Virus record (IMG/VR): IMGVR_UViG_3300009183_000283
Location: 1-28,770 of that record
From: a virus
Length of the DNA stretch: 28,770 nt
Direction: 5' to 3' (one strand)
Under the pieces are notes generated by a model that had not been told where the DNA came from, ran no database searches, and worked only from the letters and a program-made list of their open reading frames with translations. Shown in pieces: positions 2,777-23,656 of this stretch (its first letter is position 1; the number at the start of each line of letters is the position of its first letter). The translations under genes were made by a program, and so were the position numbers.

Positions 2777-3163
2777 TTAAGTCTTTAGGGCGGCGAGCAG
2801 TTCATTAATCTCTTTTTGATAATCAACCTTAATTTCTGCTTTTAAATCAATTTTTGTTTCGCGTGTTTCGCGGTAGTCTTGTTGAAACTGGCCACGTAGG
2901 GCAATCTCCACCAAGCGGCTGTTAAAGTTTTTATTCTCAACGTTAGCTAGTAGCTGTGTTTCCCAGTACGACTGGGCGTGCACCAAGGCAATTTCTAAAG
3001 CCTCACCAAAGTCAGGATATTTTTTCTTCCATGTCTCTGCAGTTGTTTTGGAGATACCAAGTTGGCTCCACATCATTTTTTGAGAAGCGCCTTCCTTGCC
3101 CATGGCAATCATCTGATCGCACATAGCTGGTTCAAACTTAGGTACTAGCTTTTTAGTTGCCAC
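2777..3163 (-). CDS. terS: Terminase small subunit (putative)
   Basis: A 128-residue protein with an N-terminal helix-turn-helix-like segment (KEGASQKMMWSQLGISKTTA, then ETWKKKYPDF) followed by helical HAQSYWETQLLANVENKNFN and RLVEIALRGQF, and a charged coiled C-terminus. This is the layout of phage small terminases, which recognise the packaging site and load the large subunit. It overlaps the preceding DUF6321 gene by 11 bp. It is encoded on the strand opposite to the large terminase and about 19 kb away. A generic HTH DNA-binding protein is the alternative. Confidence 0.72.
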   Translation of the reverse strand: MATKKLVPKFEPAMCDQMIAMGKEGASQKMMWSQLGISKTTAETWKKKYPDFGEALEIALVHAQSYWETQLLANVENKNFNSRLVEIALRGQFQQDYRETRETKIDLKAEIKVDYQKEINELLAALKT

Positions 3164-20359: not shown

Positions 20360-20506
20360 CTATGTGAGTGAGTGCTTACTAACCTATATGGCCGCGCTCT
20401 ATGTGAGTGAGTGCTTACTAACCTATATGGCCGCGCTCTATGTGAGTGAGTGCTTACTAACCTATGAGGCGCGCAGTCCTATGTGAGTGAGTGCTTACTA
20501 ACCTAT
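20360..20506. repeat. Four-copy iteron array
   Basis: A 28-bp core (CTATGTGAGTGAGTGCTTAC then TAACCTAT) occurs at 20360, 20399, 20438 and 20479, i.e. unit lengths of 39, 39 and 41 bp. The first two units are identical over 39 bp; spacers after that vary in length and sequence. Typical of replication-initiator or partition binding sites. Confidence 0.85.
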
Positions 20507-20524
20507 ATAGCGCATTGGCCTGCG

Positions 20525-20938: not shown

Positions 20939-20960
20939 TTGTGCATTATTGTTTGTATGA
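20939..20960 (+). promoter_or_regulatory. Phage promoter motif, copy f (late arm)
   Basis: Reads TTGTGCATTATTGTTTGTAT then GA; invariant A at 20957 is the A of the first late ATG. It is the entry promoter of the rightward arm, 58 bp beyond inverted-arm element 2. Confidence 0.74.
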
Positions 20961-21265
20961 GTAAATATGTTTACCAAATTCAAGGTGCGCTGCAAAGCCC
21001 TATGGGGAAGTTCCTTGGCCTTCGAGTTCTGGTATGCAATGTAGACTTCTTGGATATGGTTGACGTACCTGTAGAGATACTGGACCATAACACCACCAAG
21101 TACCTGCAGTTTCGCTTAAGCATTACTTCTGAGGCGTTGGACATTCAGCGCCTACCTGTGGAAATACAAAATAGGATACGAGCGCCGTTAGGGCGTTGGC
21201 TGGACCACTGGGTCCTAGAAAACTTTTATGGCAATATTAGCAACCGAAAAGGTGTTAACCCTTGA
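20957..21265 (+). CDS. Hypothetical protein, 102 aa, predicted leaderless
   Basis: First gene of the late arm. The ATG at 20957 coincides with the invariant A of promoter f, and no Shine-Dalgarno is possible; an in-frame TTG 18 bp upstream lies in the promoter itself. Starts MSKYVYQIQGALQSPMGKFL and ends with SNRKGVNP. Mixed strands and helices, no recognised domain. Its last 38 bases overlap the intein-like gene. Position before the terminase suggests a packaging or regulatory role, unproven. Confidence 0.7.
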   Translation: MSKYVYQIQGALQSPMGKFLGLRVLVCNVDFLDMVDVPVEILDHNTTKYLQFRLSITSEALDIQRLPVEIQNRIRAPLGRWLDHWVLENFYGNISNRKGVNP

Positions 21266-22220
21266 CTGGTGGAAACCGGCCAGCAAACTAACAGTTGGAG
21301 ATTATGTGTTTGACAAGGACGGCAAAATTGTTCAGGTCAAACTTATCCAGCAGTACCATTCCGAGAACTGCAAGCGGGTTACCTTTAACGACCACCTCTC
21401 CGTGGCCGGGGACGATAAGCTCAACTTCATGGTTGAGGACCTTAAGTATCGCAACCGGCTGCATGAGTACATAGGTAAATACCGATTTCGTAGGCCACTA
21501 CAAAAAAAGTCAGTCACTGATATGCTTGAGGTGCCGCTTAGGGATAAGCGTAGCCGCCTTGTCTATTCGGTACCAACCACACGCCCCTTAGAACTCCCAC
21601 ACCAAACCCTCCCAGTACCACCATTTGTCTTTGGCCTCTGGTTTTTTAATAGAAAATCTAAAGGCCAGCTTGGCGTTGAGGCAAAATACCACGACGACGT
21701 TATCTTAAAATTAAAAGACTATGGGTATAAGGTAACACTGGGACGTAAACGCCAAGGTGGGCGCCAAGAGTTCACTATAAGCCCCACAATTGAATCACAG
21801 CTCGTACCCAACATCCCCAATAAGATCACCAACAACTACTTGCTTGCCTCTCCAGAGCAGCGATTAGAGTTATTGCAGGGCATCATGGTATCAAAACCTG
21901 CACAATACAACGAAAAAGAAGACCGATTTCGGTTTTCTTCTAAAAATTTCCCAACCGTCCTGCGAATTCAGTCGCTTGTGGAGTCACTTGGGTCTAAAAC
22001 ACGCATAGAACACTATGAATCAGACGGTACTTATATACTTTTTTTTAAAACTCGGTTAAAATTGGTGAGTAACCAACAATCTCCACCTGTAAAGGTGCAT
22101 TTAGGGCGTAGATATATCACCAACGTTAGCAAAATTCCGGCACAACTGTGTGTGCACGTTGAAACAACATCCCAAGATAGTACTATCTTAGTAGGAGAAG
22201 GTTTTATTCCATGTCGTTAA
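21228..22220 (+). CDS. Free-standing, degenerate intein-like (Hint / LAGLIDADG) protein
   Basis: A 330-residue protein with the sequence logic of an intein. Block A-like VLTLDWWKPASKLTVGDYVF (9-28), block B-like VTFNDHLSVAGDDK (51-64), a LAGLIDADG-1-like VPPFVFGLWFFNRK (130-142), a LAGLIDADG-2-like SPEQRLELLQGIMV (208-221) and a C-terminal HVETTSQDSTILVGEGFIPC (310-329) resembling blocks F/G. The essential N-terminal Cys/Ser and C-terminal His-Asn are absent (ends CR and stop), and the acidic catalytic Asp of both LAGLIDADG motifs is missing. It overlaps terL by 10 bp. Confidence 0.72.
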   Translation: MAILATEKVLTLDWWKPASKLTVGDYVFDKDGKIVQVKLIQQYHSENCKRVTFNDHLSVAGDDKLNFMVEDLKYRNRLHEYIGKYRFRRPLQKKSVTDMLEVPLRDKRSRLVYSVPTTRPLELPHQTLPVPPFVFGLWFFNRKSKGQLGVEAKYHDDVILKLKDYGYKVTLGRKRQGGRQEFTISPTIESQLVPNIPNKITNNYLLASPEQRLELLQGIMVSKPAQYNEKEDRFRFSSKNFPTVLRIQSLVESLGSKTRIEHYESDGTYILFFKTRLKLVSNQQSPPVKVHLGRRYITNVSKIPAQLCVHVETTSQDSTILVGEGFIPCR

Positions 22221-23656
22221 CCCCGCAAAATGAATTAGTACTCAAGAAATTCATTGAGTCCAAAAAACACTGGCCCAAACCCATGCTTGACCTGATGACT
22301 TGGCAGGCAAAGTGGAAACTACAGGCCCTAGAACACCAGAAAGAGCCAGAGGACGGTGAGTACGATACGTTCCTTATGTTAGCCGGTCGAGGATCTGGCA
22401 AGACGCACACCGCGTCCCACTGGATTGGCATTCGTGCCGCTACCTTTGACAATACAAGGTGGTTGGTAACGGCCCCCACCTCAAACGACATACGTGCAAC
22501 GTGTTTTGAGGGGGACTCCGGGCTTATGAACATTATCCCCTCGTCACTTATTAGGGACTACAACAAGTCCCTCTTTGAAATTACACTAATCAATGGGTCC
22601 ATCATCCAAGGCATCCCAGCATCCGAGCCAGAGCGTTACCGCGGTAAGCAATACCACGGGGCGTGGTTCGACGAGCTGTGTGCTTTTGATTACATCGACG
22701 AAGCGTATGACGGTGTGCAGTTTACCTTGCGTCTTAAGGACCCACGCATACCGCGGGTGCAGCAGATCATTACCACAACCCCTAAGCCTAAAGAACTTAT
22801 TGTTGATCTTAACGAGGGTAAGGTCGGTGGTGACGTTTATGTAGCCAACGCCTCGTCTTATGACAATAGGGCCAACTTATCAGAGACGTTCTTTAAACAG
22901 CTTGAGACGTATGATGGTACAGACATTGGTAGGCAAGAGATTTATGGTGAGATCCTTGACCCAGAAGCGTCGGGTATTATTAAACGCAAACAATTCCGCA
23001 TGTGGCCTGCAAACAAACCAACGCCAACACTAGAATATGTAATTGCCTCATACGATCCTGCCACCTCAGAGAAAACCATGAATGACCCAACCGCCTGTAC
23101 GGTATGGGGTGTGTTTGATAGAGAAGACGCTGGCACCTGTGTGATCTTACTAGACGCGTGGGATGCCCACCTGTCCTATCCAGAGTTGCGTAAGAAAGTT
23201 ATTGCCGATTTTAAGGAAGTAGTCTACGGCGCCGACAATGAGTTTGGTAAGGGCAAAAAGGCCGACCTCATATTAATGGAAGATAAGTCAGCTGGTATCT
23301 CATTGATCCAAGAACTACAGGGTGCTAACGTTCCCGTTAGAGGATATAACCCCGGACGTGCCGATAAGGTACAAAGGCTTAACATTGTGGCCCCACTGGT
23401 TGCCAAGGGTAAGGTGTTTATCCCAGAAGATTCCGAACAAAAGGGCGAATACGCCGCGTGGGCAAAACGGTTCCTGCGACAAGTATGCTCATTTCCTGAA
23501 GCTGGGGGCCACGATGACTATGTGGACTCACTATCCCAAGCGTTGCGTGTTTTGCGTGATTCTGGCTGGTTACAGCTTGATCCTTTGCCCGCACGGGACT
23601 ATGATTACGCAGATGATGACTACGCAAGGAAGTTTAACAACCCATATAGCCAATAA
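22211..23656 (+). CDS. terL: Terminase large subunit
   Basis: A 481-residue packaging motor and nuclease. ATPase: Walker A AGRGSGKT (58-65) and Walker B HGAWFDELCAF (149-159, FDEL). Nuclease half: ASYDPATSEKTMNDPTACTV (first Asp), ILMEDKSAGI (second acid) and HDDYVDSLSQALRVL (third). No insertion or intein interrupts these motifs. It packages DNA into the prohead with the portal and small terminase, whose putative gene is at 2777-3163 on the other strand. The start overlaps the intein-like gene. Confidence 0.95.
   Translation: MSLTPQNELVLKKFIESKKHWPKPMLDLMTWQAKWKLQALEHQKEPEDGEYDTFLMLAGRGSGKTHTASHWIGIRAATFDNTRWLVTAPTSNDIRATCFEGDSGLMNIIPSSLIRDYNKSLFEITLINGSIIQGIPASEPERYRGKQYHGAWFDELCAFDYIDEAYDGVQFTLRLKDPRIPRVQQIITTTPKPKELIVDLNEGKVGGDVYVANASSYDNRANLSETFFKQLETYDGTDIGRQEIYGEILDPEASGIIKRKQFRMWPANKPTPTLEYVIASYDPATSEKTMNDPTACTVWGVFDREDAGTCVILLDAWDAHLSYPELRKKVIADFKEVVYGADNEFGKGKKADLILMEDKSAGISLIQELQGANVPVRGYNPGRADKVQRLNIVAPLVAKGKVFIPEDSEQKGEYAAWAKRFLRQVCSFPEAGGHDDYVDSLSQALRVLRDSGWLQLDPLPARDYDYADDDYARKFNNPYSQ

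Follow-up and report, generated by a model that had tools for sequence, protein, structure and literature searches.

What is the gene that immediately precedes the large terminase gene (terL) of this virus, and what could it be doing there? At this place the window, meaning the whole stretch of 28,770 nucleotides that was analysed, encodes a 330-aa protein, which an earlier note had read as an intein relic unable to splice or to cut DNA. Inteins are usually seen as selfish elements, at most as conditional splicing switches. Here a large group of uncultured phages appears to have given a dead intein a new use, because the chemistry of splicing and cutting has been lost and yet the gene is under strong selection. 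The locus comprises the following features.

20957–21265, plus strand: 'up' gene, 102 aa, co-occurring with the Hint gene and overlapping it by 38 bp
21228–22220, plus strand: the 'Hint' gene, almost certainly a stand-alone class 3 intein derivative; ATG start, 330 aa, order Hint-N, two LAGLIDADG segments, Hint-C
22211–22220, plus strand: 10-bp overlap of the Hint gene and terL; the ATGTC of terL yields Cys329 of the family, at the would-be Thr-His-Asn end of the intein
22211–23656, plus strand: terL, 481 aa, complete, intein-free

The earlier description of a complete gene beside an intein-free terL is borne out. The open reading frame at 21228–22220 has its own start and stop and carries no exteins, the overlap is exactly 10 bp, and terL is a separate gene in another frame. 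The TerL protein of the window is complete by Pfam (Terminase_6N, E 2.4e-17; Terminase_6C, E 8.5e-07), and its Walker A/P-loop, GRGSGKT, is uninterrupted.

Kinship with class 3 inteins

The 330-aa protein matched a PHROG TerL profile (E 7.6e-13), and the match falls in the intein part of that profile. In tblastn searches, hundreds of phage inteins, those of TerL and DnaB among them, matched it over 95–99% of its length at 22–26% identity, with a best E value of 7e-16 to TerL/DnaB inteins. Judged by sequence, the likeness to inteins is beyond chance. Pfam and NCBIfam contained no meaningful match, and a sequence search of the PDB returned spurious repeat-protein matches only.

Nine annotated inteins and the inteins of loci L072–L083 were aligned with 25 diverse stand-alone members. 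All seventeen usable reference inteins display the class 3 pattern, with H-x-W in block B, C-I/V-x-V/I in block F, and a terminal T-H-N; the definition of this class includes the WCT triplet of Trp B12, the block F Cys, and Thr G5 (PMC3196547). In the alignment, the stand-alone protein consists of a Met followed by an intein from residue 1 onwards: Ala2 aligns with intein residue 1, and the initiator Met is the sole residue ahead of Hint block A. The order Hint-N, LAGLIDADG 1, LAGLIDADG 2, Hint-C, which had been recognized earlier from the letters, is seen in the alignment and in the AlphaFold model alike.

The model has a mean pLDDT of 90.9 and shows both folds on which the earlier reading depended, a Hint domain and a two-part LAGLIDADG domain. 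Among solved Hint folds, those of class 3 inteins come closest to it (6rix with Z 19.1 and an rmsd of 1.9 A over 128 aa; 6bs8 with Z 18.7). Full-length PI-SceI matched with Z 17.3 and an rmsd of 8.2 A over about 312 aa, and I-DmoI matched the middle of the model, the LAGLIDADG part. The fold matches to inteins cover residues 1–330, and the C-terminus is built of Hint-C strands, with no HTH.

In a maximum-likelihood tree, the stand-alone members form one group apart from the inteins (support 100/100). The earlier idea that the element may once have been inserted in terL gains no support from the tree: the family is akin to the P-loop inteins found in TerL and in helicases, but is joined to no single one of them as nearest. 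In a viral-protein structure library, the best match was to a distant protein (25% identity) of 293 aa from an uncultured phage, labelled 'DOD-type homing endonuclease'; because of this match, relatives can be said to be deposited in databases yet, as far as could be found, undescribed. The 330-aa protein is almost certainly a domesticated class 3 intein.

Catalytic residues

Class 3 splicing needs the B10 His and the C-terminal Asn, and in LAGLIDADG homing endonucleases an acidic residue ends each LAGLIDADG motif. These positions were read across 124 distinct members of the family.

21231–21335, plus strand: Hint block A; Ala2 is intein residue 1; no Cys1, as in class 3 inteins
21390–21452, plus strand: block B region; B10 His replaced by Leu65 and B12 Trp by Phe67, both lost in all 124
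21618–21665, plus strand: LAGLIDADG motif 1; WLGDG replaced by WFFNR; Asp in no member, Glu in 2
21858–21905, plus strand: LAGLIDADG motif 2; GLMDTDG replaced by GIMVSKP; Asp replaced by Lys in 110/124
22149–22151, plus strand: Cys308, block F position 4, the class 3 nucleophile; kept, 120 Cys and 4 Ser of 124

Residue 2, the equivalent of intein residue 1, is Ala in 119 members, Gly in 4, and Ser in 1. The earlier note had counted Cys1 among the losses; it is indeed absent, but this is normal for class 3 inteins, whose nucleophile persists here as Cys308. Because the relatives are class 3 inteins, which by definition are without an N-terminal nucleophile, its absence is ancestral and not a loss. 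His at position 65 and Trp at position 67 each occur in 0/124 members, the latter position being Phe or Leu, and the terminal (G7-position) Asn is absent in all 124. The window protein ends in P-C-R, as against the P-T-H-N of class 3 inteins, and the G5 Thr is gone.

The first LAGLIDADG acid (D141) has become Asn in 84 members, Ala in 18, Ser in 9, and Arg in 7, with Glu in 2; the second (D223) has become Lys in 110 and Arg in 6 (Lys/Arg in 116/124), with Asp in 2. Both acids together occur in 0/124 members, and the window protein has N141 and K223. They were thus swapped for preferred residues, not randomly. Other residues are near-fixed in the stand-alone family yet not in inteins (e.g., A18, Q41, P186, E252), and the most divergent members (e.g., L182, L189, L071) show partly intermediate states. 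Going by what is established about how class 3 inteins splice and how LAGLIDADG enzymes cleave, the residues needed are lost, and every member should be inactive in both. The double inactivity proposed earlier for the window protein, from its missing terminal His-Asn and LAGLIDADG acids, would in this way extend to the family, and no homolog with restored catalytic residues was present among the 124.

Distribution, inheritance, and selection

A profile scan of viral contigs yielded 80 loci, and further scans were seeded with TerL. Most of the best loci of the 80-locus scan are stand-alone copies beside terL, 46–95% identical. Among TerL loci scoring at least 700 bits and having at least 1.1 kb upstream, the Hint gene lies upstream of terL in 181/181. 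It stands directly before terL save in a few loci with an HNH-like ORF inserted between them; in L129, L141, L147, and L037, an insert of about 450 nt with an HNH-endonuclease-like ORF breaks the overlap. Rfam gave no match in L249 and L141.

Among 84,980 prokaryote genomes scanned, three contigs only carried the gene, all in one betaproteobacterial MAG bin; as far as these collections show, it is therefore a gene of environmental phages and not of integrated prophages. These contigs (L155–L157) are three different Hint-clade phage contigs in the uncultured bin Umea2p1_bin-1447, which may be a weak hint of a host or a binning artefact. A prophage or host link was set aside, the three contigs of one bin being possibly a binning carry-over.

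Pairwise dN/dS over codons 13–326, outside the overlaps, is 0.06–0.15 for the Hint gene, 0.02–0.05 for terL, and 0.04–0.14 for 'up'. Because of this ratio and its presence before terL in every locus counted, the Hint gene is under purifying selection and no decaying pseudogene. The 124 distinct intact members are mostly about 330 aa long, and the protein distances of Hint and TerL co-vary (Mantel rho 0.84, 0 of 500 permutations). The gene is not mobile, because it diversifies together with TerL and its occurrence is not patchy. The earlier view of a conserved gene in its own right thus stands, for the clade as a whole.

The C-terminus and the start of terL

22194–22201, plus strand: Shine-Dalgarno-like GGAGAAGG of terL, within the codons of the conserved V-G-E-G

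Of 128 distinct tails, 94 have a Hint–terL overlap of 10 nt and 27 have one of 7 nt, and the terL start sits just where the Thr-His-Asn of an intein would fall. Conservation of 'VGEGFI.C' is largely a nucleotide constraint, because the ribosome-binding site and the start codon of terL are encoded there. The conserved 'VGEGFIPC' end pointed out in the earlier note is present but largely dictated by these signals. C329 and VGEG were accordingly rejected as functional residues: the Cys comes from the ATGT of terL, and Trp329 takes its place where terL begins ATGG.

The same arrangement could suit a decaying relic, kept only since its frame carries the ribosome-binding site and start of terL and couples translation. 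The Shine-Dalgarno sequence and ATG do lie inside the 3' end of the Hint gene, an in-frame stop interrupts the gene near codon 285 in one contig (L019/L090), and the frame looks broken in two contig-end fragments, although these may be errors or rare losses. Such a relic would account for the last ten or so codons only, whereas purifying selection extends over codons 13–326, the intact members share fixed internal residues, and retention is complete at 181/181; this explanation is very improbable.

The terminase neighbourhood

2777–3163, minus strand: small terminase (TerS) homolog, 128 aa, phrog_309, in the minus-strand replication cluster, far from terL

Sister phages whose TerL is about 55% identical (L007/MW202545, L218–L317) carry TerS upstream of terL, without Hint and 'up'; in MW202545, this TerS is Sf6-type. 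The Sf6-type or sister TerS is absent from the Hint-clade loci and from four related Hint-clade contigs of 61–66 kb, which have the Hint gene in that place instead. This contrast strongly suggested that the Hint protein took over the small-terminase role, a LAGLIDADG-based recognition of the packaging site replacing TerS. The suggestion was then weakened by the other putative TerS of the window (phrog_309, E 2.5e-12; 33% identity to phiHSIC TerS), a type also encoded in the four long contigs. In the window and in the L039 contig it lies in the opposite-strand replication cluster, and it was not found in MW202545. Because the clade encodes a different TerS homolog elsewhere, Hint need not be TerS, and a takeover of that role is improbable. 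The 330-aa protein has no TerS match in PHROGs, Pfam, or NCBIfam. It was on one and the same stretch of the tree that the Hint clade switched the type and the place of its TerS and acquired Hint and 'up'.

The 'up' gene is present in 150 of the 168 loci able to show it, and a fold search of its product gave no usable match (best Z 4.0). Its interpretation as a remnant N-extein was rejected, as some members are without 'up' or have another small gene there, with Hint unchanged. Where 'up' is missing, a small gene of the pattern MKRxNPxT...RGDxRxDGxxFFAYT...DGxFKEIWLSP lies upstream of Hint in L182–L185, L192, L193, L201, L202, L207, and L217; a gene of the same MKRxNPxT pattern also occurs in L071, before 'up'. 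A truncated paralog of the TerL ATPase domain precedes the full terL in L249 and L008 (Caulobacter phage RLK gp097c). The earlier label 'packaging-associated' has gene position and the 181/181 linkage to terL as its sole basis.

Possible functions

The chances are about even that a phage lineage exapted a complete intein as a conserved, non-catalytic core protein of the terminase operon, both selfish activities being gone and the Hint-LAGLIDADG body serving as a site-specific DNA-binding or terminase-binding factor. Domestication of an intein is supported by the limits of the gene, which starts at intein residue 1 behind the Met and ends at the would-be splice junction. The best explanation of its function, held with slightly less assurance, is that the exapted intein performs no catalysis and probably serves the late/packaging operon as a factor that binds DNA or protein. 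As a tentative joint mode of action, the pseudo-symmetric, positively charged LAGLIDADG platform would bind a specific DNA site without cutting it, and the better-conserved Hint domain would contact a partner. The simplest candidate for this partner is TerL, whose gene the Hint gene always accompanies. Column entropy is 1.61 and 1.37 in the Hint halves and 2.05 and 1.82 in the LAGLIDADG halves, so that Hint varies less. The net charge of the LAGLIDADG part is +11.8 +/- 2.7 in the family; seven class 3 inteins, measured roughly alike, range from +2 to +15.

A positive LAGLIDADG charge is no proof of DNA binding, and the co-occurrence of Hint and terL may reflect vertical descent and overlapping genes, not interaction. 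The fast evolution of the protein, with a median pairwise aa distance of 0.50 versus 0.14 for TerL, counts against this mode of action. So does WhiA, whose degenerate LAGLIDADG domain is no longer the main DNA binder (PMC3781837), a precedent that would suit a purely structural or regulatory partner, in which Hint is a protein-protein scaffold (for TerL or 'up') and DNA binding has been lost altogether. The Hint halves, as the most conserved parts, fit such a scaffold, but nearly all members have kept the LAGLIDADG part at full length, with its basic charge and under selection, and the partner is putative only; we consider a scaffold of this kind unlikely.

The dead endonuclease might also still bind the P-loop region of terL, where its ancestors would have homed, and so shield this site from related active TerL inteins. 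Class 3 inteins do target TerL P-loops (PMC5050341), the terL of the Hint clade is intein-free, and changes that kill the nuclease and retain the platform fit occlusion. No protective effect is visible, however, because about 100 sister TerL genes without the Hint protein are equally free of this intein family, and the divergence of Hint, far above that of terL, is unlike that of a binder of a fixed target. Anti-homing is as improbable as the takeover of the TerS role. Counting against the preferred reading as a non-catalytic binding factor, no DNA target of the Hint protein was found among the repeats examined upstream of the late operon and the primase operon.

These repeats form two inverted arm pairs, 20780–20803/20876–20899 and 13080–13104/13167–13191, composed of 9-bp direct repeats (core GTAACCCTAGTAACCC, four perfect copies) and flanking AT-rich DNA upstream of the two operons. 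Three of the four long contigs have two such arm pairs each, with lineage-specific sequence; they are possibly promoters or origins with a co-evolving binder. As a DNA target of Hint they were rejected: the same design occurs in sister loci without Hint (L222, L230, L232, L234, L235), and because Hint-less sister phages share it, the repeats are no evidence for Hint. The strand-switch region also holds a 39-bp repeat, CTATGTGAGTGAGTGCTTACTAACCTATATGGCCGCGCT, in four tandem copies (20360–20517).

Comparison with known systems

The protein shares full-length homology with class 3 phage inteins (TerL of Mycobacterium phage Constella, CMP1, and Acidovorax phage ACF1; DnaB of Brevibacterium phage Rousseau), as well as their independence of Cys1, their block F Cys, and their Hint-LAGLIDADG architecture. 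Unlike them, it stands outside any host protein and is not mobile, and the B10 His, the B12 Trp, the terminal Asn, and the pair of LAGLIDADG acids are all absent from it. Compared with LAGLIDADG homing endonucleases, the two-fold domain is present in the model, and the motif-end acid pair and mobility are absent. The Arth_1007 intein of Arthrobacter FB24 is likewise an inactive class 3 intein without B10 His (PMC3196547), but it is a lone pseudogene in decay, in which 66 aa of exteins still flank the intein and the F4 Cys is missing, whereas the Hint gene is selected, clade-wide, and stand-alone, with the F4 Cys kept.

Yeast HO endonuclease and the WHO elements (PMC7282813) are also stand-alone and intein-derived, with no exteins and no splicing, and HO is domesticated. 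HO differs in its active nuclease and C-terminal zinc finger; the Hint protein is nuclease-dead by sequence and ends with Hint-C. WhiA (PMC3781837) is similarly a domesticated LAGLIDADG protein without metal-binding residues, but it lacks a Hint domain, and its DNA binding relies on an added C-terminal HTH, which the C-terminus of the Hint protein model does not contain. In a survey of mycobacteriophage inteins, TerL included (PMC5050341), the words stand-alone and freestanding are absent, and the open-licence papers searched contained no doubly inactive intein turned into a selected stand-alone gene.

A clade-wide gene of this kind shows that neither chemistry is needed for a Hint-LAGLIDADG body to be useful. 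The family offers more than 120 varied sequences in which the loss of catalysis and the gain of new conserved residues can be read, and, with its place beside terL fixed, a role of the gene in packaging or late expression can be tested directly. The case is also a warning that similarity searches, misled by the kinship with inteins, will label such genes as terminase or homing endonuclease. Already known are the nuclease-active, splice-inactive HO, the dead LAGLIDADG regulator WhiA, and one dead class 3 pseudogene; new, as far as the papers searched go, is a doubly dead, class 3-derived, terminase-linked gene under selection.
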